DNA of 64,000 bases, taken from positions 1,984,001-2,048,000 of the forward strand of contig CP150183.1 in assembly GCA_037965595.1 (NCBI GenBank), read 5' to 3'. This stretch comes from Alkalihalobacillus sp. FSL W8-0930 (GTDB lineage: Bacteria > Bacillota > Bacilli > Bacillales > Bacillaceae_D). Below the pieces are notes generated by a model. That model did no database searches and was not told the DNA's origin. It worked only from the letters and a program-made list of their open reading frames with translations. The translations under genes were made by a program, and so were the position numbers. Of this stretch, positions 17,561-58,006 are shown piece by piece (position 1 is the first letter of the stretch; each line of letters starts with the position of its first letter).

Positions 17561-17706
17561 TTAACTTAGTTAGCAAAACATGAACATAGCAATATATCCG
17601 CTACAGGAGAAACCCTCGCTTGTTCAAATAAAATAAGGAATGGCGAATGATTCTGCAATTGAATCATTCGCCATTTTTGTATTGGTTTTTAGTTATGTCC
17701 CAACCT
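17561..17706 (+). repeat. Interspersed repeat, copy 1 (short form)
   Basis: About 146 bp lying exactly between the ykpA stop and the end of the sugar permease gene. Modules: GAACATAGCA, then ATCCGCTACAGGAGAAACCCTCGC, the hairpin module TGGCGAATGATTC..GAATCATTCGCCA, and the tail TTTTAGTTATGTCCCAAC. The internal stem-loop of copies 3 and 4 is missing, so this is a deleted form. See copies at 22541, 49511 and 57751. Confidence 0.8.
17639..17677. terminator. Terminator hairpin inside repeat copy 1
   Basis: A perfect 15-bp stem AATGGCGAATGATTC / GAATCATTCGCCATT with a 7-base loop, followed by TTTG on the plus strand. It can end ykpA transcription and, read from the other side, the sugar transporter operon. 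Confidence 0.75.
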
Positions 17707-17722
17707 TCTTCTTTTTTACAAA

Positions 17723-18553
17723 TTACTCCTTCACTGCCCCTTCTGCTACTCCTGCCATAAATTGTCTGCTAAAGATGATAAACAAAATAATCAGAGGTAA
17801 CGTGGCCATCAGTGTGCCAGCCATGATCATGGCATAGTCTGTATCATACACACCATTTAATTGTGACAGCATGACTTGTAGAGTATATTTTTGCGGATCA
17901 TTGATCGTAACAAGTGGCCATAGATAGTCATTCCACACATTAATAAATGTAAAGATCCCAAGGAAGGTTAAAGCTGGTCTTAATGTTGGTAATGCGACAT
18001 TCCAATACAATCGGAACATCCCACACCCATCTAATCTACCTGCATCAAGTAAGTCATTCGGGACGGATTCCTGACAAAACTGTCTGATCCAAAAGATCCC
18101 AAATGCACTTGCAAGACTCGGAATAATTAAGGCTTTATACGAGTCTACCCAACCAAACTGAGCAATTAACAAGAAGGAAGGAACAAAACTCATTTGAGCA
18201 GGAATCATCATTGTAAGGAGCAGCGCTACAAACAACATATTTTTACCTGGAAAATTGAATTTTGCAAAAGCAAATCCGGCTAGTGAACAAAAGAACAAGA
18301 CACCTATTGACGTTACAGTAGAAACAAAAACGGTATTAAATAAGGCTTGAAAAAAGTTAATATTGTCAAAAACATCATTGATATTGTTCCAGAGCTCGCC
18401 ACCAAACGTAAGACGAGGCGGAAATTGTAGAATTTCACTTGTAGTATTGGTTGCCATCACAATCAGCCAATAAAACGGAAAGATTGAGATAAAGACTCCG
18501 ATTAATAGCAAAAGATGCACGATAAGCTTCATATACCAGCGATCATTTGTCAT
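17723..18553 (-). CDS. Carbohydrate ABC transporter permease (MalG/AraQ type)
   Basis: A 276-residue protein with six predicted spans. The EAA-type loop reads DLLDAGRLDGCGMFRLYWN and is followed by ALPTLRPALTFLG, where the ATPase docks. Size and order match AraQ of arabino-oligosaccharide importers. It is last in a three-gene operon with the second permease (15-base gap) and the binding protein. No ATPase gene is present, so a shared MsmX-type ATPase is likely, as for AraNPQ in Bacillus subtilis. Substrate is not certain. Confidence 0.88.
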   Translation of the reverse strand: MTNDRWYMKLIVHLLLLIGVFISIFPFYWLIVMATNTTSEILQFPPRLTFGGELWNNINDVFDNINFFQALFNTVFVSTVTSIGVLFFCSLAGFAFAKFNFPGKNMLFVALLLTMMIPAQMSFVPSFLLIAQFGWVDSYKALIIPSLASAFGIFWIRQFCQESVPNDLLDAGRLDGCGMFRLYWNVALPTLRPALTFLGIFTFINVWNDYLWPLVTINDPQKYTLQVMLSQLNGVYDTDYAMIMAGTLMATLPLIILFIIFSRQFMAGVAEGAVKE

Positions 18554-18568
18554 TCCATTCCCTCCTCC

Positions 18569-19501
18569 TTATGCTCGTTGAACAAGCTTCCAATTGATAA
18601 ATGAGAACGCTCCTATAATAATAAACATCATCCATGAAACAGCTGAAGCATAACCATAGTTACTATTTATAAAGCCTTCATTATACATATAAAGAGTCAT
18701 CGTCATTCCTGCTCCTCCTACACCACCTGATAGTCCGAGTAAGACTTCTGGCTCTGTAAAGATTTGCATTGATCCAATCGTAGTCATAATGACTGTAAAT
18801 AAAATGATTGGACGAAGCAATGGAATCGTGATACGAAAGAAAATCTGAATTTTATTCGCTCCATCAATCACCGCTGCTTCATATAAAGATTTAGGAATAC
18901 TTTGCAACCCTGCTAGATAAATGATCGCATTATACCCAACAAATCGCCAAACGACCATGGAAGCAATAACAACTTTAATTAAAAACGAAGAGTTCATCCA
19001 TTCAAGCGAGCCAATTCCTATGAGAGATAGAACATAATTTAATAATCCATATTGATTACTAAAAATCGTTTCAAAAATGATCGCTACAGCAACGATCGAA
19101 GTGACGTTTGTAATAAAAAACATTGTTCGATACGCCCCCCTCATTCGTAGCCTAGGGAGATTTAACAAGAAGGCGATCACTAAGGCAAAAAACAGCATTG
19201 GTACACTGGACAGGAACCAGATTGCAAATGTGTTCCCTACCGATTGCCAAAAAACGGGTTCTGTTAACAGGTAGTTAAATTGAGAAAATCCCACAAACGT
19301 CATGTCACCTAACCCCGACCAACTATGAAAAGACAAATACAGAGAAAATAAAATCGGAAACAATCCAAAGATTAAAAACAAGAGAAAGAAAGGTGAAATA
19401 AAAAGATACAGGATTCGATGCTTCCATATTTCACTCCATAAGGAAGGCTTACTCATTGCTTCTACACGGTCACTTGATGAATTCGGAACTGGACGACTCA
19501 T
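18569..19501 (-). CDS. Sugar ABC transporter permease (MalF/AraP type)
   Basis: A 310-residue protein with six spans and an N-terminal cytoplasmic stretch of about 30 residues. The EAA loop is SLYEAAVIDGANKIQIFFR followed by ITIPLLRPIILF. Its length is close to AraP (313). It pairs with the MalG-type permease downstream to form the membrane channel, and with the lipoprotein encoded 11 bases upstream. The start ATG follows AGGAGGGATATG. Sugar specificity cannot be read from sequence. Confidence 0.88.
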   Translation of the reverse strand: MSRPVPNSSSDRVEAMSKPSLWSEIWKHRILYLFISPFFLLFLIFGLFPILFSLYLSFHSWSGLGDMTFVGFSQFNYLLTEPVFWQSVGNTFAIWFLSSVPMLFFALVIAFLLNLPRLRMRGAYRTMFFITNVTSIVAVAIIFETIFSNQYGLLNYVLSLIGIGSLEWMNSSFLIKVVIASMVVWRFVGYNAIIYLAGLQSIPKSLYEAAVIDGANKIQIFFRITIPLLRPIILFTVIMTTIGSMQIFTEPEVLLGLSGGVGGAGMTMTLYMYNEGFINSNYGYASAVSWMMFIIIGAFSFINWKLVQRA

Positions 19502-19512
19502 TCATATCCCTC

Positions 19513-20760
19513 CTACTCATTTGTTTGTCTAGATAACTCTCGACTAATCTTCGTCTGCACATCTTGCCATGCAGTGTCTGGATCTTTATTTCCTCTCTCC
19601 ACTAATGTGAGTTCATCCTCAAAATAACTTCTTAGCGGTCCGTAAAGATTTCCGTAATATGTTAGAGGTACATCCTTTGCTGCTTCTGCATACACCTCCA
19701 TTACCACTTGATCACCAAAGAATGGGTCGGGTTGATACAGATCCTCTGACTCAATGGTTTCAATGGTAGAAGGGAAAAGCTCTACGCCTAAATAATGTTC
19801 CTTTTGTGATTCTGTTGATACTAATGCTTTTGTTATCTCAACTGCCAAATCCTTTTCCTCTGAAGATTCTAAAACCCCTAAAAATGAACCTCCATTATTT
19901 CCTGCTCCACCAGGTGCTGCTGTAATCCTCCATTCACCTGCTGTATCAGGAGCAGCGTCCTTTAAGATATTCGCTTCCCATACTGCCCCAATAAATGAAG
20001 CGATCGATCCGTTATTTAGTGCTGCATTCCGTTCTCCATCCGCAATTCTCGGTGTTAGCTGCAGTTCATTTACCTTCATCGCCATATCCCAAGCTTCTCG
20101 AACCGATCCGCCATCGCCAATATATTCTTCATCTGTTGTAAAGTATTTATCTGATTGTTGTTCAATATTTTGTAAATACGTTCTTTGCAGGTTATCAAAC
20201 ATAAAGACCCCTGTACGTTCCTTCATCTGCTCCCCTGCTTTAACATAGGCATCCCAACTATTAATTTGTTCTGCAACTTCATCTGGTTCAGAAGGCAGAC
20301 CAGCCTCTTCAAATAAGTCCGCTCGATAATATAAGACGGTTGGACCTGTATCAATCGGTAGGGCAATCATTGTGTCTGTTTCCGGGTCAATCGCTAAATT
20401 CCATTTCCAATCTAAGTAGTCTTCTTTTATTTCCTCTACTCCGTAATCATTTAAGTTTACGAACTTATCACTATACTGAAGATACTCAGAGGCCCAGTCA
20501 TTCATCGCCACGATATCTGGTCCATTCCCTGCAATTAAAGCGGTATGCAGCTTTGTTTTGTATTCTCCGCCCACTTTCTGAGCATTAATAGTGACACCAG
20601 GGAACTCTGCCTCAACATCTTTAATCACTTGATCATCTAACGCACGATGCCAATACCACAGAGTAATGGTTGTATCGCCTTCTGCTCCTTCTGAATTCGC
20701 ACAACTAACTAGCATCCCTGTACAAAATGCACCTAGTAAAAGACGGTTTAGTCGTTTCAT
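19513..20760 (-). CDS. Sugar-binding lipoprotein of the ABC transporter
   Basis: A 415-residue solute-binding protein. The signal peptide ends in LVSC, so Cys20 is lipidated. ITLWYWHRALDDQVIKDVE begins the family-1 binding fold, with PDIVAMNDWASEYL and YYRADLFEEAGLPSEPD as typical signatures. It is first in the operon. A LacI/cre-like palindrome lies 19 bases before the start, and an AraR-like palindrome further upstream, so carbon-source control is likely. AraN-like function is a guess from size, gene order and operator. Confidence 0.88.
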   Translation of the reverse strand: MKRLNRLLLGAFCTGMLVSCANSEGAEGDTTITLWYWHRALDDQVIKDVEAEFPGVTINAQKVGGEYKTKLHTALIAGNGPDIVAMNDWASEYLQYSDKFVNLNDYGVEEIKEDYLDWKWNLAIDPETDTMIALPIDTGPTVLYYRADLFEEAGLPSEPDEVAEQINSWDAYVKAGEQMKERTGVFMFDNLQRTYLQNIEQQSDKYFTTDEEYIGDGGSVREAWDMAMKVNELQLTPRIADGERNAALNNGSIASFIGAVWEANILKDAAPDTAGEWRITAAPGGAGNNGGSFLGVLESSEEKDLAVEITKALVSTESQKEHYLGVELFPSTIETIESEDLYQPDPFFGDQVVMEVYAEAAKDVPLTYYGNLYGPLRSYFEDELTLVERGNKDPDTAWQDVQTKISRELSRQTNE

Positions 20761-20778
20761 AACATCCTCCTCAGAATA

Positions 20779-20792
20779 TGATAACGCTTACA
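20779..20792 (-). promoter_or_regulatory. cre/LacI-type operator before the sugar operon
   Basis: TGATAACGCTTACA on the plus strand (TGTAAGCGTTATCA on the minus strand) fits the CcpA cre consensus except at one position and also looks like a LacI-family operator. It lies 19 bases upstream of the binding-protein start, where binding would block transcription. Confidence 0.6.
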
Positions 20793-20799
20793 TTTAAAC

Positions 20800-20828
20800 T
20801 TTTACGTAAAATAGTTGGACGTACAACT
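20800..20828. promoter_or_regulatory. Two adjacent palindromes, one AraR-like
   Basis: TTTTACGTAAAA (20800-20811) is a perfect 12-bp palindrome. One base later comes AGTTGGACGTACAACT (20813-20828), close to the GntR-type AraR operator pattern ATTTGTACGTACAAAT of Bacillus. Both lie in the 122-base region shared by the divergent transporter and reductase genes. Identity of the regulator is inference. Confidence 0.5.
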
Positions 20829-20843
20829 TATAATATATTAAAA

Positions 20844-20857
20844 TGAAATCGATTACA
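20844..20857 (+). promoter_or_regulatory. Consensus cre site before the aldo/keto reductase
   Basis: TGAAATCGATTACA matches every position of the CcpA consensus TGWAANCGNTNWCA. It starts 39 bases before the reductase ATG and just after the AT-rich TATAATATATT stretch, so catabolite repression is likely. Confidence 0.7.
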
Positions 20858-20882
20858 ACAAGTTTACTAGGAGGCTTATTTT

Positions 20883-21812
20883 ATGAATCATATAAACATT
20901 TCAGCTGTTAAAAAGCCAATCAGTTCATTAATCTTAGGCTCTGATTATTTTACACCTCAAAATCAAGAGAAAGTAAACGAGATGATTGAGGCGTTTGTTG
21001 AAGTTGGTGGGAACACAATTGATACCGCATACATTTATGCAGGTGGTGAGAGTGAAAAAGCAATTGGACAGTGGATTGATCAAGCCTCTAATCGAGATAT
21101 ATTAAATATATGGACAAAAGGTGGTCACCCAAATCAACATGGACATACGATTAATCAAGTTGAATTGTATGATCAGCTTCAAACAAGTCTTGAACGCCTA
21201 AAAACAGACCATGTTGAATTATATGCACTCCACCGAGATGACTTGACAGTACGCGTAGAAGATATACTTGAGTGGTTAAATGAGCATGTTCAAGCTGGGA
21301 GAATTCAAGCATTTGGTGCATCAAATTGGAGTGTAGAAAGGCTTCAAGAAGCGAATCAGTATGCAGCTAAAAACGGTATGCAGGGCTTTTCGTTTTCAAG
21401 TCCAAACCTGAGTTTAGCTAAAGCAAAAGAGCCTTATTGGCCAGGATGCGTTAGCGCAGATCAGCAGATGATCGAATGGCATGAGCAAAGCAAGCTTCCA
21501 TTATTCTCTTGGTCTTCACAAGCGAGAGGATTCTTCACGGGTCGATTCACTCGCGATAATTTGGAGAATGAAGATTTAGTTCGTGTGTTTTATAATGATG
21601 AGAACTGGGAACGTTACGACAGAGCAGAGAAGCTATCGAAGGAGAAACAGTGCAGTTTGATTGAAGTTGCTTTAGCGTATGTATTAAATCAAAGCTTCCC
21701 GACAGGTGCTATTATTGGACCACAAAACCGTCAAGAATTACAATCTTGTGGGCGAGGAGCAAGTCTTACTTTATCAGCCGATGAAATTGCTTATCTTGAT
21801 TTACAAAAATAA
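20883..21812 (+). CDS. Aldo/keto reductase
   Basis: A 309-residue NAD(P)H-dependent reductase of the AKR barrel fold. The catalytic tetrad is visible: Asp in GNTIDTAYIYAGG with the Tyr after it, Lys in IWTKGG, and His in ELYALHRDD; RIQAFGASNWS follows. Cofactor-binding residues lie in FPTGAIIGPQNRQEL. The start follows AGGAGGCTTATTTT. It is divergent from the sugar transporter and has its own cre site, so it may act on a sugar or sugar derivative. Substrate is not known. Confidence 0.88.
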   Translation: MNHINISAVKKPISSLILGSDYFTPQNQEKVNEMIEAFVEVGGNTIDTAYIYAGGESEKAIGQWIDQASNRDILNIWTKGGHPNQHGHTINQVELYDQLQTSLERLKTDHVELYALHRDDLTVRVEDILEWLNEHVQAGRIQAFGASNWSVERLQEANQYAAKNGMQGFSFSSPNLSLAKAKEPYWPGCVSADQQMIEWHEQSKLPLFSWSSQARGFFTGRFTRDNLENEDLVRVFYNDENWERYDRAEKLSKEKQCSLIEVALAYVLNQSFPTGAIIGPQNRQELQSCGRGASLTLSADEIAYLDLQK

Positions 21813-21824
21813 ATGAAGTTAAAA

Positions 21825-21860
21825 AGGCGAGTTGCTCAAGTGATGAGCTCCTCGCCTATT
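21825..21860. terminator. Bidirectional terminator
   Basis: AGGCGAG-TT-GCTCA / TGAGC-TC-CTCGCCT (21825-21857) with ATTTTATT on the right and TTTTTAAC on the left of the minus strand. It ends both the reductase and the converging DedA gene. Confidence 0.75.
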
Positions 21861-21867
21861 TTATTGA

Positions 21868-22491
21868 TTATATTTTTTGTATCATTTTATCCACATCATT
21901 CTTTTTGAACTTTCGATATACAAAAAATCCAAGAGCAACACAAGCGACAATAACAAGATATGTGACTTGCTCTAGTATGGATTGAACCTGCCCTATCATC
22001 TGGCCGAAGAAGTAACCCATGGAGAAATAGGCTGCAACCCAAATGGAAGCAGATAAGAAAGCGTACGTGGCAAAGGTTACATATCGAATGGACGAAGCCC
22101 CTACTCCAAGTGGAACAGCATGGCGAACAAACGGAAGATAATAGCTAAATAATAGCGCACGCTTACCATGTCGATTAATAAGCTTTGTACTTTCCTCAGC
22201 TCGTTTTTTCCACTTTGCACCAAAACGAGTTTGTTTAGTCATCGTCTGATTCATCCTTGCTCCAATTGTATACCATATAGAGCCATGACAAATGACTGCT
22301 GCAAAAATAGTTAAAAACGTTGGAATCGGTTCTACATACGTTAATGTAACCATCCAACCACCTGTCATTAATAGAACTTCATTTGGGACTGGAAAAATAA
22401 ACAATCCGATGGCAAAACAAATAAATAATGCTGTATAACCATATGGTAAGACGTGATTGATCATTTCATTGATCCAGTCCATTGTATTCAT
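21868..22491 (-). CDS. DedA-family (SNARE-associated/VTT) membrane protein
   Basis: A 207-residue protein with the family pattern: re-entrant FIFPVPNEVLLMTGGW, then the conserved block RHGKRALLFSYYLPFVRHAVPLGVGASSI. Five to six hydrophobic stretches. DedA proteins act as undecaprenyl-phosphate or phospholipid flippases and are needed for envelope integrity. The F-x-R-x-x-P type motif is present as FVRHAVP. The start ATG is preceded by GAGGAGATGAA. Confidence 0.85.
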   Translation of the reverse strand: MNTMDWINEMINHVLPYGYTALFICFAIGLFIFPVPNEVLLMTGGWMVTLTYVEPIPTFLTIFAAVICHGSIWYTIGARMNQTMTKQTRFGAKWKKRAEESTKLINRHGKRALLFSYYLPFVRHAVPLGVGASSIRYVTFATYAFLSASIWVAAYFSMGYFFGQMIGQVQSILEQVTYLVIVACVALGFFVYRKFKKNDVDKMIQKI

Positions 22492-22540
22492 CTCCTCAGG
22501 AAATAGATACCCTCATTTCCCTCATAGAAAACAAAAAAAG

Positions 22541-22701
22541 TGCGAAACATAACTTTAAATTGATGATTAAAACACGAACGTAGCACCACATCCACTACAG
22601 GAGAATCCCTCTGCTCGTTTTAATAAAACAACAAATGGGCGAATGATTCTGCTATCAAATCATTCGCCCTTTGTGTATTCATTTTTAGATATGACTCAAG
22701 C
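22541..22701 (+). repeat. Interspersed repeat, copy 2 (short form)
   Basis: About 160 bp. It opens with GCGAAACATAACTTTAAATTG, the inverted complement of the tail consensus, then has ACACGAACGTAGCACCACATC, CACTACAGGAGAATCCCTC, the hairpin GGGCGAATGATT..AATCATTCGCCC (22637-22648, 22658-22669), and the tail TTTTTAGATATGACTCAAGC. The stem carries an extra G-C pair not in the other copies, so base pairing is kept while sequence varies. Like copy 1 it lacks the internal stem-loop. Confidence 0.78.
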
Positions 22702-22709
22702 TCTTTTGG

Positions 22710-22910
22710 TTACCCTTTAAAATACTCTTTGTAATATCCACCGATCTTACCTGTGTTATCAATCACAAAATAAAATTCCTCAGTCTCATTTTTTAATGGA
22801 TAGGTGTTTCCTACTGTTAAAGCACGGTTAACCATATACTTTTTGGCATCCGTATGAACGCATGTCAGTTCACGGATGGTTTCGTTTGTTTCCCACTGTT
22901 GATGAATCAT
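22710..22910 (-). CDS. Small conserved protein (DUF6501-like)
   Basis: A 66-residue protein; ATG 22910 is favoured because AAAGGCAGG is 8-9 bases upstream, while an ATG at 22916 is too close. It starts MIHQQWETNETIRELTCVH and contains DAKKYMVNRALTVGNTYPL and FVIDNTGKIGGYYKEYF. I associate this pattern with a small Bacillus family (DUF6501, from memory). No function is known. It lies downstream of odhAB on the same strand. Confidence 0.7.
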   Translation of the reverse strand: MIHQQWETNETIRELTCVHTDAKKYMVNRALTVGNTYPLKNETEEFYFVIDNTGKIGGYYKEYFKG

Positions 22911-22936
22911 TTTCATTACCTGCCTTTAATTCGTGA

Positions 22937-22968
22937 TAAAAAAGAGAAGCTGACGAGTCAGCTTCTCT
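22937..22968 (-). terminator. Terminator of the odhAB operon
   Basis: AGAGAAGCTGA / TCAGCTTCTCT with a 4-base loop (22943-22953, 22958-22968), then TTTTTT on the minus strand. Confidence 0.85.
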
Positions 22969-22981
22969 AAGCATACAATAC

Positions 22982-24244: not shown

Positions 24245-24259
24245 GATGGATGCGCCTCC

Positions 24260-36749: not shown

Positions 36750-36770
36750 AAAACAGAACACAGCTTACTG

Positions 36771-36805
36771 TTAGTTTTTTATAGAGGGAGTTTGCGAACC
36801 TCTTA
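36771..36805 (-). ncRNA. preQ1-I riboswitch aptamer
   Basis: On the minus strand AGAGGTTCGCAAACTCCCTC (stem-loop 1) is followed by TATAAAAAACTAA, whose A-rich strand and CTAA form the pseudoknot. This is the preQ1 class I pattern. It lies before queC; ligand binding should favour the downstream terminator and shut off preQ1 synthesis. Confidence 0.92.
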
Positions 36806-36934
36806 TACCTATTCAATCCGTTAGTCTTAGTGTAACATAACTGTTCGCAGTCAGCTATTCTTTTCACTTTGCGTAAAAGTTGGTAATATAGGAGAGAATA
36901 GAAATTCAGTTTGCTTAATTTGAGGAGGCTTTTT

Positions 36935-38164
36935 ATGTCTTTTGTTGAACAAGTAGAAAAATATGCAGAGCTCGCTGTAAAAGTTGGAGTGAACATTCAA
37001 CCAGGTCAAACACTGGTTATTCGCACACCCCTTTTTGCCGCAGAATTTGTTCGTGTAGTAGCTAAAAAAGCGTACGAAGCTGGAGCAGGTCATGTAGAAG
37101 TAGAATGGTCTGACGAAGAAATATCAAAGCTAAAGTATCACCTTGCACCTGACGAATCTTTTCATACATATCCAGAGTGGCGTGCAAAAGGGTTAGAAGA
37201 GGAAGCTGAAAAAGGTTCTGCCTTCTTAAGCATTACTGGATCTGATCCTGATTTACTAAAGGGTGTGGATCCTACTCGCATTGCCAATGCTAACAAAGCA
37301 GCTGGAGCCGCATTAAATGGATTTAGACGCTACATCACTTCTGACAAGGTTAGCTGGTCAATCGTTGCAGTGCCGTCTGTAGGTTGGGCTGAAACGGTTT
37401 TCCCTGAAGAAAAAGGGGAAAAAGCGGTTGAAAAGCTTTGGAATGCAATCTTCGCCGCAACAAGAATTGACCAAGCAAACCCTGTAGCAGCATGGAAAGA
37501 ACACCTTGCTACATTGGATGAAAAGATGGACATCTTAAATCAACAGCATTTCCACGCACTTCATTACACAGCAGAAGGAACAGACTTAACAATTGAATTA
37601 CCAGAAACACATCTATGGGTATCTGGAGGCAGTATTAGCAAAAGTGGCGTAGACTTTGTTGCAAACATGCCGACGGAAGAAGTCTTTACAGCTGCAAAGA
37701 AAACGGGTGTAAATGGCCATGTAACAAGCACTAAGCCATTAAGCTATGGTGGCTCACTGATTGAGAACTTCACTCTTACTTTTGAAGAAGGTAAAATTAC
37801 TAAAGCCACGGCAGAAAAAGGTCAAGAAACATTAGAACGATTACTTGAGAATGATGAAAACTCTCGCTATATTGGTGAGGTTGCACTTGTTCCACACAAA
37901 TCACCGATCTCTGATACAAACATCATCTTCTTTAATACACTATTCGATGAGAATGCATCAAACCACTTAGCGATTGGAAGTGCTTATGCCTTTAATATTG
38001 AAGGTGGTAAAGAAATGACAAATGAAGAGCTTGAAGCAAACGGAATCAATACAAGTCAAACCCATGTTGACTTCATGGTCGGTTCTGCTTCAATGGACAT
38101 AGATGGTATTCAAAAAGATGGCAGCCGTGTTCCTGTATTCCGTAACGGAAACTGGGCGATCTAA
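36935..38164 (+). CDS. ampS: Aminopeptidase AmpS (family M29)
   Basis: ATG 36935 follows TTGAGGAGGCTTTTT, giving 409 residues, the expected length for AmpS. VEQVEKYAELAVKVGVNIQPG is the family start; metal-ligand blocks are seen in FVANMPTEEVFTAA (Glu), GGSLIENFTLTFEEG (Glu), HLAIGSAYAF (His), and HVDFMVGSASMDIDG (His, Asp). M29 enzymes are cytosolic dimetal aminopeptidases with broad specificity. It is divergent from the que operon and ends in a strong terminator. Confidence 0.93.
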   Translation: MSFVEQVEKYAELAVKVGVNIQPGQTLVIRTPLFAAEFVRVVAKKAYEAGAGHVEVEWSDEEISKLKYHLAPDESFHTYPEWRAKGLEEEAEKGSAFLSITGSDPDLLKGVDPTRIANANKAAGAALNGFRRYITSDKVSWSIVAVPSVGWAETVFPEEKGEKAVEKLWNAIFAATRIDQANPVAAWKEHLATLDEKMDILNQQHFHALHYTAEGTDLTIELPETHLWVSGGSISKSGVDFVANMPTEEVFTAAKKTGVNGHVTSTKPLSYGGSLIENFTLTFEEGKITKATAEKGQETLERLLENDENSRYIGEVALVPHKSPISDTNIIFFNTLFDENASNHLAIGSAYAFNIEGGKEMTNEELEANGINTSQTHVDFMVGSASMDIDGIQKDGSRVPVFRNGNWAI

Positions 38165-38171
38165 TCAAACA

Positions 38172-38200
38172 AAAAAAGCACCTATAGTAGGTGCTTTTTT
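38172..38200. terminator. Bidirectional terminator
   Basis: AAAAAAGCACC-TATAGTA-GGTGCTTTTTT between the ends of ampS and the converging symporter gene. Confidence 0.88.
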
Positions 38201-38201
38201 T

Positions 38202-39554
38202 TTATGGCTCTAGTCTTTCTCCTCTTCTAAATTCTTGGAATCTCTTTGTTTCATGTACAACAACCCCAGATAAGAAGATCAAACCAATTAAGTTTGGAAT
38301 AGCCATTAATGCATTAAAAATATCAGCAATGTTCCAAACAATCTCAAGATGAGAGACAGCTCCGACAAAGACGACTAGTACATAAATGGTACGATAGATG
38401 TACGCATTTCGATCGCCGAACAAGTAGCCAAAACACTTTTCTCCGTAGTAAGACCAGCCAAGAACGGTTGTGTAGGCAAAAAAGATAATACCTATTGTTA
38501 CGATCAAACCGCCGTATCCCGGTAAGAAGGATTCAAATGCTGCTCCTGTTAAAATGTCTTGGTTTGTGTCTCCAAGACCAAACTGCATAATACTCATTAC
38601 AATGACTAAACCAGTGATCGTACATACAATCATTGTATCTAAAAACGTTCCAGTCATGGATACTAATGCTTGACGACCAGGATAATCTGTTTTAGCAGCC
38701 GCTGCTGCAATCGGTGCAGATCCTAGTCCAGCCTCATTCGAGAATACCCCTCTGGCAACTCCATATCGAATCGCTGTACCAATCGCTCCACCCGCTACGG
38801 ATTCCCCAGTAAAGGCAGCCTTAAAAATCATCGCAAACGCTTCAGGTACTAGATTAATATTTAAAAGAATAATAATTAAGCCGCCAACTATGTAAAAAAT
38901 GGCCATAAACGGTACAATAACAGAAGCAAATTTACCTATACTTTTTATTCCACCAAGCAAGACTAAACCAGTTAGAACAGCAAGTGCCACTCCTGTAATC
39001 CAAGGTGTTATACCAAAATTGGAACTAAGAGCTCCAGCTACTGTATTAACCTGCGTCATATTACCGATCCCAAATGAAGCTAGAAAGCCAAATAATGCAA
39101 ATAGTACAGCCAACCATTTCCAGCCTAAACCTTTTTCTATGTAATACATCGGACCACCGGATATCTCACCTTTTTCGTTGACTACCCGATATTTTACTGC
39201 AAGAATTGCTTCTGCATATTTCGTTGCCATTCCGAAGAAAGCTGCGGCCCACATCCAAAAGATTGCGCCAACCCCTCCGAGTAGGACGGCCGAAGCGACC
39301 CCAGCCATGTTACCAATCCCAAGTGTAGCTGCCATTGCAGTCATTAGTGATTGGAAATGAGAGATATCTCCCTCTTCTTCACTATTTTTATCTGATTTTG
39401 TAAAAACAAGCTTTAACGCATAAGGTAATTGAAAAACCTGTAAAAGTCCTAATCTCACCGTAAGGAGAACACCAGTTCCCACAATTAAAATAAGAGTGGC
39501 AGGACCCCAAACAATGTCACCTATTGCACCTACTAAATTACTGAACCAGTCCAT
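38202..39554 (-). CDS. Alanine/glycine:cation symporter (AGCS family, AlsT-like)
   Basis: A 450-residue membrane protein with about ten spans. GISGGPMYYIEKGLGWKWLAV-type block (here ISGGPMYYIEKGL), GIGNMAGVASAVLLGGVGAIFWMW and GVFSNEAGLGSAPIAAAAAK are family signatures. It imports alanine or glycine with sodium, or possibly glutamine as proposed for AlsT. The start follows GAGGAGAATTGG. Monocistronic. Confidence 0.92.
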   Translation of the reverse strand: MDWFSNLVGAIGDIVWGPATLILIVGTGVLLTVRLGLLQVFQLPYALKLVFTKSDKNSEEEGDISHFQSLMTAMAATLGIGNMAGVASAVLLGGVGAIFWMWAAAFFGMATKYAEAILAVKYRVVNEKGEISGGPMYYIEKGLGWKWLAVLFALFGFLASFGIGNMTQVNTVAGALSSNFGITPWITGVALAVLTGLVLLGGIKSIGKFASVIVPFMAIFYIVGGLIIILLNINLVPEAFAMIFKAAFTGESVAGGAIGTAIRYGVARGVFSNEAGLGSAPIAAAAAKTDYPGRQALVSMTGTFLDTMIVCTITGLVIVMSIMQFGLGDTNQDILTGAAFESFLPGYGGLIVTIGIIFFAYTTVLGWSYYGEKCFGYLFGDRNAYIYRTIYVLVVFVGAVSHLEIVWNIADIFNALMAIPNLIGLIFLSGVVVHETKRFQEFRRGERLEP

Positions 39555-48001: not shown

Positions 48002-48016
48002 GTTCTCTCTCCTTAA

Positions 48017-48895: not shown

Positions 48896-48917
48896 GGTAA
48901 AACTCCCTCTTTAACAA

Positions 48918-49378: not shown

Positions 49379-49501
49379 ATGAACTATAAAAAAGCTGTCG
49401 GATACGCAACGATTCTTCATTCGTTCGGTGGATTAACTAAGGAACAAAAAAATCAATGGCTATCCACCCTATCTACTCAGAACCCTAAGAAAAAAGCGTA
49501 A
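49379..49501 (+). CDS. Small basic protein, 40 residues
   Basis: ATG 49379 lies behind TAAGGAGTGACGGGTC. It encodes MNYKKAVGYATILHSFGG and a helical, Lys-rich end closing with TAA at 49499. No signal or span is seen and the family is not recognised. It ends just before repeat copy 3, whose hairpin could terminate its transcript. Confidence 0.5.
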   Translation: MNYKKAVGYATILHSFGGLTKEQKNQWLSTLSTQNPKKKA

Positions 49502-49510
49502 AATAAAAAG

Positions 49511-49769
49511 CGAGGCTAAGATAAAACCTTAAGGTAGATAGTAATACACGAACATAGCACCAAATCCGCTACAGGAGAATCCCTCGCACCCACAAGAACG
49601 GCCTCAGCCCCTTTCGCGGGAAAAGCGCCGCTACAGTGTCTTCACCGCGTTCTGTTCCGTAGGAGTCTCGGGTTCTCCCTCCGCTCGTTTTGTTATAACA
49701 CAAATGGCGAATGATTCTGCAATTGAATCATTCGCCATTTCTAATTGATTTTTTAGTTATGTCTCAACG
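49511..49769 (+). repeat. Interspersed repeat, copy 3 (long form)
   Basis: About 259 bp. Left end GAGGCTAAGATAAAACC, then ACACGAACATAGCACCAAATC, the paired arms AGGAGAATCCCTCG (49573-49586) and CTCGGGTTCTCC (49667-49678), inner hairpins GAACGGCC..GTTCCG and AGCGCCGCT, and the terminator module AATGGCGAATGATTC / GAATCATTCGCCATT (49703-49717, 49725-49739). Tail TTTTTTAGTTATGTCTCAAC. The outer ends are imperfect inverted repeats of each other. No coding capacity. Confidence 0.85.
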
Positions 49770-49788
49770 TCTATTTATGGAATTTACC

Positions 49789-50694: not shown

Positions 50695-50796
50695 TTCGTT
50701 TCCCCCGTTTTTATAGGCTCTTGTATAGTCAGATTCCAGCAGACTATCCTCTTCTCTATCTTCGGCAGAAAGACGCGCGAAGTTAAGCAAAAGCAC

Positions 50797-50830
50797 AAAA
50801 AAACATCCACTGAATGAGGTTCAGTGGATG
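50797..50830 (-). terminator. Hairpin behind the SurA-like gene
   Basis: CATCCACTGAA / TTCAGTGGATG (50804-50814, 50820-50830) followed by TTTTTTT on the minus strand. It ends the transcript of the lipoprotein gene. Confidence 0.85.
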
Positions 50831-50844
50831 CGTGGTCCATCTTC

Positions 50845-51588: not shown

Positions 51589-51783
51589 TTTTTAAAGGCC
51601 CCTTTCATTACGTGCATCTAGAGGCAGTGTACCACAGGTTGAACAAGGCGATAAACTCATAATGAATGGAAGGATTAAAATGTGTAATCGTATCAAAAAC
51701 AAGCATGCTAAAATCCCTGACACACCACGCTTCAACGACTAAACTTCCTTAATTATCAAAAATAGTGTGAAATAACAAACTGC

Positions 51784-52728: not shown

Positions 52729-52794
52729 TCCATCAGCACCTTTCAAAGTCTTATTACATAGACATAATTAGAATGTTTTATTGGAGGAGTTTAC

Positions 52795-53190
52795 ATGAGT
52801 GAGCATAATACAAATGATGCTAAGAATTCACGAGGGTATCAAGATGTAATGCGATCGATTGATGACTTTTTTCATCAAACGTATCGACGATTTCAAGCTC
52901 CGCCATTATTTGCACAATCCATTCCTGTACGTACTGAGGAAACACTTGAAGCCTTTATTATTTTTGCCGAATTACCTGGAGTAGATAAGCAATTAATTCG
53001 CCTAGAAGCTTTGCCGCACGCACTTGCTATCCGAGTGATGTCGAGCGAATATTCTGAACAATCAGTCGAAAAAGAGCGACTTGTATCAATCCCATTTGTT
53101 TACGGAGAAAAAGATATTAAGGCAAATTATAAGGACGGATTACTACGAATTACGATAAAACGCCACAGACAATCCATATCCATCGATTAA
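52795..53190 (+). CDS. Hsp20/alpha-crystallin small heat-shock protein
   Basis: A 131-residue protein. After about 40 residues, an alpha-crystallin domain follows: EAFIIFAELPGVDKQLIRLEA and LVSIPFVYGEKDIKANYKDGLLRI, including the GLLRITI end motif. It is divergent from the dipeptidase, with GGAGGAG before the ATG at 52795. Co-oriented with the YppG-like gene 12 bases on. It binds unfolding proteins; some family members are spore coat proteins. Confidence 0.88.
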   Translation: MSEHNTNDAKNSRGYQDVMRSIDDFFHQTYRRFQAPPLFAQSIPVRTEETLEAFIIFAELPGVDKQLIRLEALPHALAIRVMSSEYSEQSVEKERLVSIPFVYGEKDIKANYKDGLLRITIKRHRQSISID

Positions 53191-53202
53191 GGAGGTTAAA
53201 CC

Positions 53203-53502
53203 ATGCTTCATAACAATCAAAGCCGACGTCACCCATACCCAAACTTCCCTACTCAAGGAAGACATCCCTCTTATTACCCAAATCAAGGGAGAAGAATGCG
53301 GGCAGGTGTACGTCAGCAGACAACTGGCATGTATTCACCGAATCAAACCGTATCACGTACCGGGTTTATCAAAAAAGCTTTCACATCAGACGACGGTCAA
53401 TTTGATGTATCCAGAACCGCTCAAACGGTGGACCAAGTCATTAAAACGGTACAGCAGGTTTCCCCATATGTTCGTAAGGTTGGCTCATACTTTCTTAGAT
53501 AG
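53203..53502 (+). CDS. YppG-like protein
   Basis: A 99-residue protein rich in Asn, Gln, Arg, Tyr and Pro in its first half (NNQSRRHPYPNFPTQGR), followed by GFIKKAFTSDDGQFDVSRTAQ and KTVQQVSPYVRKVGSYF. That pattern recalls the YppG-like family of Bacillus. Such proteins are thought to be spore-related, but the role is unknown. AAGGAGG lies 8 bases before the ATG. It lies behind the Hsp20 gene in the same operon. Confidence 0.72.
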   Translation: MLHNNQSRRHPYPNFPTQGRHPSYYPNQGRRMRAGVRQQTTGMYSPNQTVSRTGFIKKAFTSDDGQFDVSRTAQTVDQVIKTVQQVSPYVRKVGSYFLR

Positions 53503-53504
53503 CC

Positions 53505-53807
53505 TTACTTTAGGGTTAAACCATATGCTAGCGTTTGATTTGGATTCACCATTTTTAATCCCTGTGTAGGCTTATAATCAATGGTTACTCGCGAGCCAAT
53601 TTCATCGCTCGCTTTTTTGTTGTAAATAAACTGTTGGCCCGCTTGCCGGACAGTTGTATCTTCTGATTCAACAGGATCATCAAGCTGCAAGTAAAATTCA
53701 ATCATGGTACTGCATTCAAATGTATCTCGTGCTACAACTCGTATCGCTTTGTCCGACTGAATGGATTGAAAAGAAGATGCTGCCGCATCAGTAACAGTAA
53801 TGTCCAT
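53505..53807 (-). CDS. HesB/IscA-fold protein (YqkB-like)
   Basis: A 100-residue protein: MDITVTDAAASSFQSI, DDPVESEDTTVRQAGQQF and IDYKPTQGLKMVNPNQTLAYG. This is the HesB/IscA-type beta fold as in the YqkB group; only one Cys is present, so cluster binding is uncertain. AGAGGTG precedes its ATG. It converges on the YppG-like gene with a 2-base gap, and no terminator was seen between them. Confidence 0.75.
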   Translation of the reverse strand: MDITVTDAAASSFQSIQSDKAIRVVARDTFECSTMIEFYLQLDDPVESEDTTVRQAGQQFIYNKKASDEIGSRVTIDYKPTQGLKMVNPNQTLAYGLTLK

Positions 53808-53831
53808 AGTAAAACACCTCTCTTAAAAAGC

Positions 53832-55052
53832 TTAAATTAAATCATTTTGCTCAAATAAAAACTCATAAGGAATATCCATAAACATATACAACGAATCAGA
53901 GATAGGGTATGCAAATGTGCGTATTTGCTCATCTCGCTCAATATCAGTGTATAAATCAGACAATATTCCTTTTTTCTCAACATTCATGCGAACGATGTTT
54001 TCAAGAAAATACGGTCGCCAGCTCCAGTTTTTATACAGACCCTCTTTTTTTAGCTGCCATGCACCTTCCAGATCCTTTTCCACATTAGAGGATTGCTGAA
54101 GCCCTTCTTCATTGCAGATGTAAATTCGAAAAACATACTCACTTAACTCTTTTGCGACAGTTAAGATGAGGTCATCTAATGTTCCCGTGCTTTTTGTTTG
54201 TTTTAATGTAGCACGTAGTGAATGTCCTAATTCGTTTGAAAGTTCAAGTTGTGCTTGCATCTTCTTACGTTCATACGTAATGAAGTGCTGGAAGTCTTTT
54301 TGCATCCGCTCTCTGCATACATCCTCTAACACTAAATCTTTTGAGGCAGGTAGAAGGTAAGGGCCTTGATAGTAACGGGCTCCATTTCGCCAAGCATAGT
54401 TTAATTGATTAAAGGTTGAGATTCCATCAAATAATAGTGTTGCTCCAATCTTACGAGAAAGCATTGTAAGAGATTGGTGAACATCCCCATATAAATGTGG
54501 AAGCGAATCCTGATTTAAAAAAGAAACGTTCACACGAATGACATTAGGATGAAGCATGGCAACTTGATCCATATGACTACTGCTTTGCCCTACATTATCA
54601 ATTCCAATTCGAATCCCTAAGCTTTGAAGATAGGAAAGAACATGCTTAATCTCTGCATAATAAGAGTGAATATCTTTTTCATCTAATCCCAAAATAATTT
54701 GATTATAACTAATCGTTTGATCTTCAATATACGGTTGAATCCGTTCTAAAAAGCTTTCTCCAGAATCCTTTATAAGTTGTCTAGCATCGTAGTTAAAGTA
54801 CATAGCTCCTTTAAAGTTCGAAGCAGCGTAATGCTCTAGTGCTAGCCTTTGCAAGTGATCGTCGAGTTCATTTCGGTATTCAGAGGGAATGGTTTTATCG
54901 CCAAAAAACCATCCTATTCTTTTAACCCCATCTGGTGCATTAAGTCTTGCTACAACCTCGTACCCCACAACAATTTGCTTCTCAGCGTTAAAGATGGGAA
55001 GAAAATAAGGTACGACATTATCTTTTTCCATCATGACATCTAAAGGATCCAT
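53832..55052 (-). CDS. ykuI: EAL-domain c-di-GMP receptor YkuI
   Basis: A 406-residue protein, within one residue of YkuI. The EAL domain (about 10-250) carries VGYEVVARLNA in the place of the EAL motif, plus IGIDNVGQSSSH where active enzymes have DDFG, so catalytic activity is doubtful. A C-terminal YkuI-type PAS-like domain follows (about 260-400). Bacillus subtilis YkuI binds c-di-GMP without detectable hydrolysis and influences exopolysaccharide. AGGAGGGGTTGA lies before the ATG. Confidence 0.92.
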   Translation of the reverse strand: MDPLDVMMEKDNVVPYFLPIFNAEKQIVVGYEVVARLNAPDGVKRIGWFFGDKTIPSEYRNELDDHLQRLALEHYAASNFKGAMYFNYDARQLIKDSGESFLERIQPYIEDQTISYNQIILGLDEKDIHSYYAEIKHVLSYLQSLGIRIGIDNVGQSSSHMDQVAMLHPNVIRVNVSFLNQDSLPHLYGDVHQSLTMLSRKIGATLLFDGISTFNQLNYAWRNGARYYQGPYLLPASKDLVLEDVCRERMQKDFQHFITYERKKMQAQLELSNELGHSLRATLKQTKSTGTLDDLILTVAKELSEYVFRIYICNEEGLQQSSNVEKDLEGAWQLKKEGLYKNWSWRPYFLENIVRMNVEKKGILSDLYTDIERDEQIRTFAYPISDSLYMFMDIPYEFLFEQNDLI

Positions 55053-55109
55053 TCAACCCCTCCTCACACACAACATAACCACTTAAGTATAGCATAGGAG
55101 GTAGCTTCA

Positions 55110-55940
55110 TTACGTTAGGAAATGCTTGATAAGCTGAGCCGTTTTTTTCGGTTGTTCTTCTGGCACTAAATGACCTGTTTCAGGAAGGACCATGAGCTTG
55201 GCATCGTGCAAATCGTGCGATAACTTCTTCCCAACGGATAAAGGAATGAGAGGATCACTTTCCCCCCATATAATTAAACACCTTTGTTTAATTGATTGAA
55301 GATCCGTACTAGACATATCCCCTTCGCGTTGCCTCATTAAACAAGTAATAGAATGATAAAACCCTCTATCCTTTAAAGGTCTACCGTACTCTTTGACCAT
55401 TTCACTTGTCACAGCATTTTTTTTGAACATTAATTGGCCGATAAACGGTTTACAATCCCTATTCTTCCCCAATGAATAGAGTAAAGAGGAGAAGAATGGT
55501 ATATAAGAGGAACACACCACCACTTTTTTCACTCGATGAAAATATGCAGAAGCTGAAAGAAGGATTAATGAATCGATCCGTTCAGGCGTTTGCTTAGCTG
55601 TATACAAGGCCACTTGACCTCCCATTGAATGGCCAATTAATGTGACATGGTTTAGCTCATACAACTCCATTATTTCAGTTAACAAAGCTGCATAATTTTT
55701 AAATTCATAGCAAAACGTTTTATCCTTCCCACTTTTTCCGAATCCAGGTAAGTCAAAGCATAATAAATCATAGTCATTTGGCATCGATGGCAGCAGTTGT
55801 CTGAAACTGAAACTTGATGAAAGAAATCCATGTATAAAAAGCAATGTTCCCCTACACTTTTTAGCCGTGTGAAACCACCTTTCCACATATACATGTGTTC
55901 CTTGCATATATAATGTTGCCTGTTCACCCTTTCGTTTCAA
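55110..55940 (-). CDS. Alpha/beta-fold hydrolase
   Basis: A 276-residue protein, TTG start behind GGGAGGTGG. LLFIHGFLSSSFSFRQL carries the oxyanion region, VTLIGHSMGGQVAL the nucleophile Ser, IIWGESDPLIPL the acid Asp, and PETGHLVPEEQP the His. The family includes esterases, lipases and haloperoxidase-like enzymes; the substrate is unknown. The first 30 residues are basic and not a signal peptide. No operon partner. Confidence 0.88.
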   Translation of the reverse strand: MKRKGEQATLYMQGTHVYVERWFHTAKKCRGTLLFIHGFLSSSFSFRQLLPSMPNDYDLLCFDLPGFGKSGKDKTFCYEFKNYAALLTEIMELYELNHVTLIGHSMGGQVALYTAKQTPERIDSLILLSASAYFHRVKKVVVCSSYIPFFSSLLYSLGKNRDCKPFIGQLMFKKNAVTSEMVKEYGRPLKDRGFYHSITCLMRQREGDMSSTDLQSIKQRCLIIWGESDPLIPLSVGKKLSHDLHDAKLMVLPETGHLVPEEQPKKTAQLIKHFLT

Positions 55941-56006
55941 TGCATACCACCTCCCGATAACACGTAATATAACTAGGCTTACCCAAAACAGAACTCCTTA
56001 TGAACG

Positions 56007-56044
56007 AAAAAATCCGAATGCTTCCACTTGGGAGTCATTCGGAT
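56007..56044 (-). terminator. Terminator of metA
   Basis: ATCCGAATG / CATTCGGAT (56012-56020, 56036-56044) followed by TTTTTTCG on the minus strand. Confidence 0.8.
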
Positions 56045-56051
56045 CTAAATG

Positions 56052-56960
56052 TTACGTTAAATCATAAGGCGTCTCTTGGTATACATAATAATTCAACCAG
56101 TTTGTAAACAGCAGGTTTGAATGGGCTCTCCAGCGAAGCGCGGGAGGAACACTTTGATCATTATCTGGAAAGTAGTTCACTGGTGGTTGGATCGCCACCC
56201 CTTTACTTAAGTCCCTTTGATATTCTTCATCTAAAGTCGTTACATCATATTCTGAATGTCCCGTCACAAAAATGTGTTTTCCATCCTTTGAAGCTGCAAG
56301 ATACAAGCCCGCATCCTTAGATGTACTTAAAATGTCTAGTTCCGAGACCTTATCTATGTCTTCAATTCTTGTCTCTGTATGTCTGGAGTGTGGTGCCAAG
56401 AATACATCATCAAACCCACGAAGTAATTTAATTGGATCTGGATTCACCTTATGCTCAAAAATTCCAAATAATTTTTCACTCATCGGATATTTCTGAATTC
56501 CGTAATGATGATACAATCCAGCTTGTGCCCCCCAACAAATATGTAAAGTTGAAGTGACATTGTCTTTACTCCAATCCATGATCCATTTTAATTCTTCCCA
56601 GTAGTCCACTTCTTCAAATTCAAGCTGTTCAACAGGAGCGCCAGTAATAATCATTCCATCAAATTTGCGCTTTTTAATCTCATCTATTGTTTTATAAAAA
56701 AGCTTAAGATGATCTTGTTTCGTATTTTTTGAAACATGAGACGAAGGGTACAAGAAGGATACATCAAGCTGCAATGGCGAATTACTTAACAGCCGCAAAA
56801 TTTGAGTTTCTGTCGTTTCCTTTATAGGCATTAGATTTAAAATCACAATGGATAGTGGCCTGATGTCCTGACTATATGCTCTCGATTCGTCCATAATAAA
56901 AATGTTCTCAGCGTTTAAGATTTCCCTAGCTGGAAGATGATCTGGTATTTTAATTGGCAT
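56052..56960 (-). CDS. metAA: Homoserine O-acetyltransferase (MetA fold)
   Basis: ATG 56960 follows GAGGGGAGAGCCAGAC, giving 302 residues. The acyl-enzyme Cys142 is in [16 protein letters not shown], and the catalytic His is in VTGHSEYD. Residue 111 is Glu ([15 protein letters not shown]), which in this family marks acetyl-CoA rather than succinyl-CoA use. It activates homoserine for methionine synthesis. No S-box riboswitch is visible in the 122-base gap upstream, so control differs from many Bacillus met genes. Confidence 0.94.
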
Positions 56961-57082
56961 GTCTGGCTCTCCCCTCAAAATCAATCTTGCTTCTTTCTCT
57001 AACGTTTCCTTGTCTATTTATCTTGATAAACGTATCATGAAACGAAGCAATCTGCAATAAAGGATGAAAGGAATGAGATCGA

Positions 57083-57760
57083 ATGAATTTACGGTTAGAA
57101 TGGGTTTATAAGCATCCAAAACGAACGGCTCGCTATCAAATGACAACAGATTATATGAGTATTAATGAGGCTCTTCTATTGGAAGAAGATCTTATAAAAA
57201 CAGGTCGCTCTGTTAGTTGTCAGTTTTTTGATGAAGATGATGCGAGCTGGACTAGGAAGGATTTACTTAGATTCTTAAAAGCAATGGAAACAGAACCGCA
57301 TCAAGTAAAGGCTTATATCGACGGAGGCTACCGCAAGGAATCAAACGAGGCTGGGCTTGGTTTGGCGATTTATTATCAGCAAAACGGTCAGCATTGGCGA
57401 TATAGAGTAAACGAACGGATAGACGAAATTGACGATAATAATGAGGCAGAATACGCAGCTCTCGCATATTTATTTACGATCGCCGAGGAATTAGGAATTC
57501 ACCATCAGGCACTAACTATTTATACAGACTCCAAGACGCTTTATCATCAAATGACGGGGGAATGGCCTTGTTATGAAGAAACACTTATTCGATGGAATGA
57601 ACGGATTGAAGAAAAGGTGGCAAAACTCGGACTCAAACCCACGTACTCTTTTCTTGGCAGACATTTAAATAAAGAAGCAGACCAACTCGCATCTCAAGCA
57701 CTCGACGGTATTTTTATTGAAGGGAAAAAAGAACAGACAAAAAAAGAGGACGTGACCTAA
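57083..57760 (+). CDS. RNase H-fold protein (YpeP-like)
   Basis: A 225-residue protein. Residues about 75-215 have the RNase HI-type fold: AYIDGGYRKESNEAGLGLAI (Asp), DDNNEAEYAALAYL (Glu), LTIYTDSKTLYHQ (Asp) and LNKEADQLASQAL (Asp), so the catalytic set is complete. The first 70 residues are a separate domain (KHPKRTARYQMTTDYMSIN). AAAGGAATGAGATCG precedes the ATG. The stop codon TAA falls in the left end of repeat copy 4. Confidence 0.85.
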   Translation: MNLRLEWVYKHPKRTARYQMTTDYMSINEALLLEEDLIKTGRSVSCQFFDEDDASWTRKDLLRFLKAMETEPHQVKAYIDGGYRKESNEAGLGLAIYYQQNGQHWRYRVNERIDEIDDNNEAEYAALAYLFTIAEELGIHHQALTIYTDSKTLYHQMTGEWPCYEETLIRWNERIEEKVAKLGLKPTYSFLGRHLNKEADQLASQALDGIFIEGKKEQTKKEDVT

Positions 57761-58006
57761 CGTTAATGTAGCGAGAAAAACAAAAATATTGCAAAAAAAT
57801 CCGCTACAGGAGAATCCCTCGCTTTCCACGGGAACGGCCTCAGCACCTTTAGCGGGAAAAGCGCCGCTAAAGTGTCTTCACCGCGTTCTGTTCCGTAGGA
57901 GTCTCGGGTTCTCCTTACGCTTGTTTGGAGAAAAAACAAATGGCGAATGATTCGATGTAGAACCATTCGCCATTTTTCGTATTGATCTTTAGTTATATTT
58001 CAGCCA
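57751..58006 (+). repeat. Interspersed repeat, copy 4 (long form)
   Basis: About 256 bp, the second long copy. It contains ATCCGCTACAGGAGAATCCC, TCGCTTTCCACGGGAACGGCC, AGCGGGAAAAGCGCCGCT, CGCGTTCTGTTCCGTAGGAG, TCTCGGGTTCTCC and the module AATGGCGAATGATTC..ACCATTCGCCATTTTT, then TTTAGTTATATTTCAGCC. The inner stem-loop can fold over about 110 bases. The stem arm of the last hairpin has changed more than the other copies. It fills the space between the RNase H-like and PHP genes. Confidence 0.85.

Follow-up and report, generated by a model that had tools for sequence, protein, structure and literature searches.

Four intergenic sequences in a 64,000-nucleotide (nt) stretch of Alkalihalobacillus sp. 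FSL W8-0930 (GCA_037965595.1, CP150183.1, a single contig of 3,885,014 bases; genome G000) share the same modules in the same order, which raises the question of what kind of element this repeat is and how it came to occupy the ends of genes. The whole stretch analyzed (G000:C1:1984001-2048000) is referred to here as the window. An earlier note, made from the letters of the sequence, had placed the four copies at 17561, 22541, 49511, and 57751 of the window, and both the sequence and an alignment bear out these places and the module order. We propose, with a probability of roughly 85%, that the repeat is a miniature element of the IS1182/IS1272 type, moved in trans, that replaces host terminators by stem-loop replacement and supplies a terminator of its own.

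First, we established how many copies there are and how they are built. R1, a covariance model built from 33 copies and covering the right third of the repeat, yielded 150 scored matches at E ≤ 0.01, corresponding to 133 distinct places plus 17 reverse-strand matches on the same hairpins. The 3.885-Mb genome thus holds the repeat in at least 133 places, the weakest of which retain scarcely more than the hairpin. BLAST with the third window copy returned 173 candidate places, 40 of which were scored and all 40 found to be of the long form, while a 20-mer of the terminal repeat, allowing up to 3 mismatches, found 61 ends (both ends counted) versus 0 for the reversed control pattern. Among copies with both ends within 4 substitutions, the median length from end to end was 261 bp for the long form (n = 36) and 164 bp for the short form (n = 13). 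In the orientation of the window copies, the element begins with a left terminal inverted repeat (TIR), GAGG(G/C)(C/T)GGGACATAAC, and a left arm that terminates in CCGCTACAGGAGAATCCCTCGC, followed by a middle module of ca. 100 nt, a module CGCTNGTT leading into an A-rich stretch, the hairpin (GGCGAATGATTC...GAATCATTCGCC), ca. 19 nt of U-rich sequence, and the right TIR (GTTATGTCCCAGCCTC). Scored by its 3' half, the middle module is present in 96 of the 133 copies and absent from 37.

Most of what the earlier note had said about this anatomy stood, some of it in a sharper form. Its two long and two short copies are real, the short form being the long form minus the middle module, with junctions of at least two types. 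The imperfect inverted repeats that it saw at the ends exist as well, the real outer ends being TIRs of 16 to 17 bp (GAGG(G/C)(C/T)GGGACATAACT / AGTTATGTCCCAGCCTC), the left one of which the first window copy has lost. As it had stated, there is no frame in the element and hence no transposase frame, and the hairpin keeps pairing while it varies: over 104 copies, 98.4% of the cells were paired and 6 of the 12 pairs had changes on both sides, as many as in none of 500 shuffles (the alignment was fitted to R1, itself built from the 33 copies). Further genomic copies, with supported pairing and shared ends, were found with a covariance model of the kind that it had suggested, and neither of the two outcomes that it had named as refuting came about. 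In contrast to the hairpin, pairing of the TIRs as an RNA stem showed no clear covariation excess over column composition, and the ends thus appear to be conserved as sequence, like transposase sites. The 12 nt after the hairpin contain on average 7.0 and 7.9 T residues on the two strands versus 5.5 at a downstream control (132 copies). Being U-rich on both strands, the hairpin appears to be built for both directions, and it probably terminates transcription in the cell.

The evidence that carries our reading comes from sites that are occupied in G000 and empty in a sister species (G001). Flanks of all 133 copies were compared by BLAST with 800 kb of the 1,274,031-base contig of G001, so that most sites were compared with this one sister species. 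Syntenic flank pairs were obtained for 24 copies, and at 16 of these sites the element is absent from G001 (G000 coordinates 1575756, 1581734, 1592443, 1635316, 1665880, 1669006, 1670929, 1692177, 1783712, 1812940, 1908624, 2006612, 2033682, 2041918, 2072418, and 2292183). Each of the 16 has, in G001, a terminator-type inverted repeat that G000 lacks; those at 1635316 and 2072418 were read from the fold, the automatic pick having chosen another hairpin. R1 detected no copy at these G001 sites, except for one marginal match (E = 0.05) on the hairpin at 1669006. For instance, at 1665880, G001 reads A3-CCCCATCGG...CCGGTGGGG-T3, while of this sequence G000 keeps only the A and T ends, on either side of the element. 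In six cases (1665880, 1692177, 1783712, 2006612, 2033682, and 2292183), the deleted segment coincides with the symmetry of the hairpin to within ca. 3 nt. At 2072418, G000 is also ca. 500 nt longer than G001. That insertion removes the resident terminator goes beyond the interpretation given in the earlier note.

Two places in the window show the same exchange from the other side, with the element in G001 and an intact hairpin here, and thus represent the state before insertion. At 38164 to 38210 (no strand assigned), the window has a resident terminator-type hairpin, AAAAAAAGCACCTA-TAG-TAGGTGCTTTTTTTTT (as a whole, AAAAAAAGCACCTATAGTAGGTGCTTTTTTTTT), and G001 has the element exactly there. 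The second, at 21823 to 21861 (no strand assigned), is AAAAAGGCGAG...CTCGCCTATTTT, with a fold of -22.8 kcal/mol for 21806 to 21875; the equivalent G001 copy is decayed and carries a different hairpin, GGCAGACGATC...GATCGTCTGCC. These two are the strong R1 matches (E ≤ 1e-7) that are specific to G001 within the part of its contig that matches the window.

Three of the 16 empty sites correspond to window copies, all four of which lie on the plus strand. The second copy (short, 22540 to 22703, at 2006612 in the genome) has its left TIR at 22540 to 22553, its hairpin at 22637 to 22669, and its right TIR at 22688 to 22703; the extra G-C pair that the earlier note had remarked on is present in this hairpin. 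The syntenic site lacks the element in G001, G003, and G004, with the hairpin AAAAGAATGGC-CGTAAA-GCCATTCTTTT in G001, a hairpin read by eye in G004, and no obvious strong hairpin in G003. The third copy (long, 49512 to 49771, at 2033682) has its left TIR at 49512 to 49527, middle module at 49588 to 49681, hairpin at 49706 to 49736, and right TIR at 49756 to 49771, and G001 has the hairpin ACGAATG...CATTCGT in its place. The fourth (long, 57746 to 58007, at 2041918) has its left TIR at 57746 to 57761, the equivalent of the middle module at ca. 57823 to 57918, the hairpin at 57942 to 57971, and the right TIR at 57992 to 58007; the G001 site is empty and has the hairpin AAGGATGAACGT...ACGTCCATCCTT. 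The open reading frame (ORF) at 57083 to 57760 has its stop codon inside the left TIR of this copy, while the G001 frame, read by eye, ends inside the resident hairpin, which suggests that the element provided a new stop codon. The first copy (short, 17564 to 17707; hairpin at 17642 to 17672, right TIR at 17692 to 17707) has a decayed left end and, like the second, has no middle module in the alignment.

The locus of this first copy (2001617) is one of eight sites with the element or a remnant of it in both species. The copy in G001 is long, has a left end, and lies in the same orientation; alleles that differ in the middle module indicate that the module was lost (or gained) independently. 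At the same locus, G004 has a hairpin, read by eye, instead of the element. The syntenic gap in G003 (L163, between G003:C55:16314 and 17006) is occupied by a long tandem array with units like TTTCCCGATATCCGCTCCTC. Orientation is also the same in the two species at 1755330, 1630280, 2299618, and 1789709; at the last two, the G001 remnant is scarcely more than a hairpin, and the copy at 1789709 is decayed (52 bits with R1). At the remaining three sites (1913145, 2086925, and 2239672) the orientations are opposite, which implies either that the same terminators were used repeatedly or that the element was inverted in place. TnSha1 has been reported in both orientations within one plasmid terminator (PMC4923244).

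Taken as a mechanism, a transposase acting in trans would recognize the 16- to 17-bp TIRs as well as the intrinsic-terminator hairpin at the 3' end of a gene, whose stem-loop would be removed. The element would then take the place of the stem-loop, flanked by the remaining A- and T-tracts and without duplicating the target, and its own hairpin, U-rich on both strands and located ca. 19 nt inside the right end, would take over termination for the affected gene. The bases just outside the ends look as if the tracts of a former terminator persisted: A reaches 0.90 at position -2 and 0.75 at -1 (68 left ends), compared with ca. 0.4 further out, and T reaches 0.73, 0.74, and 0.69 at positions +1 to +3 (91 right ends), also versus ca. 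0.4 further out.

Several results weigh against this reading. The A and T runs at the flanks could also be part of the element's own end, and pairing of the flanks outside the TIRs, as expected from leftover stem feet, showed no excess (186 and 779 of 2000 permutations were as high). The automatic alignment centers the deletion on the hairpin in only ca. 6 of the 16 sites, the gap being ambiguous or off-center elsewhere, and next to the replaced hairpin at 1635316, G001 has another one, which G000 retains in degraded form. In addition, convergent gaps often contain a stem-loop in any case, and the simple ORF caller from which all gene neighborhoods were derived puts 10 of the 16 sites in such gaps. 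The best fold near the gap center reached -12 kcal/mol or lower at 15 of the 16 sites; among control gaps of G001, this held for 13 of 25 convergent and 64 of 203 tandem ones. The hairpins at the 16 sites were thus stronger than those in tandem gaps (p = 9e-7) but not significantly stronger than those at random points in convergent gaps (p = 0.09). Three versions of the control agree (the one using the mean of three points took in 17 sites, including 1789709); with single random points, folds of ≤ -9 were found in 17 of 25 convergent, 105 of 203 tandem, and 11 of 56 divergent gaps. As the difference from convergent gaps is not significant, what carries the argument is that the hairpins were lost and substituted, not simply that they are present.

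These controls also speak for an ordinary miniature inverted-repeat transposable element (MITE) that merely tolerates intergenic sites at 3' ends, where the resident hairpins of G001 would be coincidental, most such gaps holding a terminator. SPRITE, BOX, and RUP repeats likewise favor convergent gaps (PMC3049150). We nevertheless consider this alternative unlikely. Insertion without deletion would have retained the resident hairpin, which is gone at all 16 sites, the hairpins exceed those of the tandem controls, and IS1272, whose ends are similar, has been published as replacing stem-loops. Moreover, the target-site duplications that the earlier note had proposed to look for did not turn up convincingly in a search of 30 × 30 offsets with k = 2 to 9 in 81 of the 130 copies having both anchors (those with ≤3 errors per anchor); the best offset, 5 of 81 versus 0.37 expected, came from among 7,200 tests and was not accepted. 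Being short, frameless, present in many copies, bounded by TIRs, and inserted in a lineage-specific manner, the repeat is MITE-like, as the earlier note had suggested. That the duplication usual in MITEs (a trait listed in PMC3049150) did not turn up convincingly is expected for a derivative of an insertion sequence that makes none, but it means that the canonical definition does not fully apply. The other half of that suggestion, a bcr-like element, found no support, since the ends match those of IS1182-family elements and no convincing duplication was found.

The assignment to the IS1182/IS1272 type draws on relatives in other genomes. With profiles PF05598 and PF13751, no IS1182-type transposase was found in G000 or in G001 to G003, which counts against our reading insofar as current mobility is not supported. 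PF13751 had nine matches in the congener G004 and some in 38 of 60 genomes, and relatives with a transposase, of the kind the earlier note had thought worth seeking, were found in G004, G029, G038, and G021, although not in G000. At least one end like that of the repeat was present at 8 of the 30 IS1182-type loci examined (L193, L199, L203, L204, L206, L214, L218, and L222). Compared with GAGGCTGGGACATAACT/AGTTATGTCCCAGCCTC, seven of these are within 2 substitutions, L218 being exact, and L204 has one base deleted at both ends; the other 22 loci, some of them contig-edge fragments, have no matching ends. NF033551 identifies the proteins of L204 (in G004, of the same genus) and L206 (in G029) as IS1182 family transposases, with 435 and 407 bits, respectively. 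In all four loci that were folded (L199, L204, L206, and L218), there is a strong terminator-type hairpin 15 to 20 nt inside the end, and in L199 at both ends. Along similar lines, five IS1182-type elements of ca. 1.9 kb in G004 (L267 to L271) carry the middle module ca. 40 nt inside the left end, where it may be a leader or a terminator guarding the transposase gene; their ends (GAGGCCACTGAAAAAGTC / ACTTTTTCAGTGGCCTC-like) are unlike those of the repeat, and their PF13751-type frames are split in two where both are listed. IS1182-type elements thus have counterparts of the left-end module and of the right-end hairpin, each at the equivalent position, although no single element with the exact ends has yet shown the two together, and these shared landmarks make an IS1182-type element minus its transposase gene the simplest origin. 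The ends of ca. 16 bp match those of an IS1182-family element, and all 16 empty sites have a stem-loop that is missing from the occupied site (with exact borders in ca. 6), with no convincing target-site duplication in 81 copies, while the IS1182 transposase gene is present neither in the element nor, as far as found, in G000. Lacking a transposase, the repeat is here called a derivative working like IS1272 and not a member of IS1182. From the published behavior of IS1272 and TnSha1, we infer that an IS1182-type transposase moves it in trans by stem-loop replacement.

The repeat family itself was traced with R1, which matched at E ≤ 1e-7 in 2 of 30 genomes (G000 and G001) and at E ≤ 1e-4 in 8 of 41 genomes of the taxonomic family, namely these two, weakly G003, and five of genus g7. 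A sister family in G010 and G033, of another genus (6 of 6 loci, among 16 shown), combines similar ends and layout with another hairpin, AACGACGAACGTTCC...GGAATGTTCGTC, so that the position of the hairpin has been kept and its sequence exchanged. A GAGGCCACTG-type end occurs in 5 of 6 loci of G003 and G004, and a matching right end was seen in G002 only at L261 (among the 16 loci shown). The left motif has two exact matches in Shouchella xiaoxiensis.

Placement and orientation fit our reading and also bear on a second alternative, a terminator cassette that the host has domesticated and that has been copied among intergenic regions through gene conversion or recombination, with no transposition. 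The 133 copies fall into 68 convergent, 56 tandem, and 0 divergent gaps (9 unresolved), whereas gaps of 40 to 400 nt in the G001 stretch comprise 51 convergent, 242 tandem, and 59 divergent ones. Between tandem genes, copies oriented with their hairpin close to the upstream stop codon outnumber the others by 45 to 11 (p = 5e-6). Selection for termination is the simplest reason for this bias, polarity of insertion being an alternative, and the bias and the covarying hairpin together suggest selection on the terminator, which speaks for a cassette; that no transposase was found in G000 agrees with it too. A cassette is hard to reconcile with the sharp ends of 16 to 17 bp common to IS1182 elements, with insertions at unrelated sites that are specific to one lineage, and with the finding that, of the 8 sites shared by both species, 3 have opposite orientations. 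We regard it as quite improbable, somewhat more so than an ordinary MITE. Insertion by an IS1182-type transposase, in turn, agrees with a genome-wide survey in which IS1182 was among the insertion sequence families overrepresented between convergent genes (PMC9208149).

Least probable is a structured noncoding RNA family residing in the middle module, with the remainder as flanks: the module, G+C rich and structured, folds with long arms (GGAGAATCCC/GGGTTCTCC in the consensus) and has homologues in 8 of 40 genomes (G000 included), some of them between different flanks, but it has no Rfam match at gathering scores in the window, shows little covariation among these copies, lacks its 3' half in 37 of the 133, and sits inside IS1182-type elements in G004.

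In order to put the repeat into perspective, we compared it with described systems, drawing on portions of the papers cited. IS1272 (IS1182 family, Staphylococcus) has 16-bp ends, replaces inverted repeats of 21 to 85 bp, and makes no target-site duplication (PMC5678879), and both TnSha1 and IS1272 target terminator hairpins, whose stem-loop is deleted upon insertion (PMC4923244); the present repeat resembles them in its ends of ca. 16 bp, in the apparent replacement of a stem-loop, often a terminator, and in that no convincing target duplication was found. An IS1272 primer (AAGACCGAGGCTGAGACG) holds the end-like sequence GAGGCTGAGAC (PMC5678879), and a TnSha1 probe holds the end-like TTATGTCCCGG, ending in CTTTATGTCCCGGA (PMC4923244). 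However, IS1272 is ca. 1.9 kb long and has a transposase, whereas the repeat is 0.16 to 0.26 kb long, has none, and exists in >100 copies; it also contains an internal replacement terminator, which the portions of the IS1272 papers used here do not describe (PMC5678879, PMC4923244). The pneumococcal SPRITE is likewise a small interspersed repeat with a terminator-like hairpin, enriched in convergent-gene gaps near stop codons. Its ends are only AAAA/TTTT, there are 30 copies in the genome studied, and no comparable empty site was found (PMC3049150), while the repeat has conserved IS1182-type ends of 16 to 17 bp and empty sites that show the swap. bcr1 is also a small intergenic repeat of Bacillales with traits of a mobile element, although the title of its description restricts it to the B. 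cereus group (PMC2267715). Bhal-1 of B. halodurans is another stem-loop intergenic family of a Bacillus, of 74 bp with 36 copies (PMC2267715). Terminators come up in a 2024 review of prokaryotic MITEs both as a possibility and in connection with SPRITE (PMC10969869). A literature search with pieces of the repeat sequence found no work on bacterial repeats among the matches listed, and no published miniature terminator-replacing element was found among the open-licence papers listed. As far as this search shows, a miniature element that replaces stem-loops at many places while carrying a replacement terminator is new.

In the papers examined, as far as the parts used here go, stem-loop replacement is described for large staphylococcal elements. 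The 16 before/after pairs and two reverse cases presented here come from alkaliphilic soil-type bacilli and involve a tiny element; they offer many natural sites at which to test how a transposase reads a DNA hairpin. That the replacement terminator is built in may explain how such elements attain a high copy number. In a single genome, a mobile element seems to have rewritten the 3' ends of genes at >100 loci, which is relevant to annotation and to the evolution of terminators. A more general idea, for which we see about even odds, is that IS1182-type elements and their miniatures live by exchanging terminators, finding them by structure, destroying them, and compensating with one of their own, located 15 to 20 nt inside the end. 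If this were true, insertion would be nearly neutral, one family could occupy >100 gene ends, and the hairpin sequence would be swapped between families while its position is kept.

The repeat is itself a target of insertion. An IS4-family element (448-amino-acid transposase, NF033592; ends CATAGCCGTCAAGTTAAG), with 16 near-full copies in G000, lies inside the middle module of at least nine copies: L074, L077, L088, L098, L117, L125, L140, L149, and L153 (respectively, G000 positions 2626186, 2939963, 1033643, 1096748, 594437, 3680749, 518469, 1323560, and 1353455). All of these insertions share one point, flanked on either side by GGG(T/A)ACGGCC, and they occur in both orientations; their recurrence there makes the repeat a landing pad. 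The insertion point may resemble the GGG(N)5CCC targeted by IS231. Matches to the end repeat outside the 133 places were found at G000:C1:3303912, 3198701, and 3752439, of which 3198701 adjoins an IS4-type copy. The only Rfam match in the window at gathering scores was a PreQ1 riboswitch (RF00522) at 36765 to 36808 on the minus strand, with 47.6 bits.

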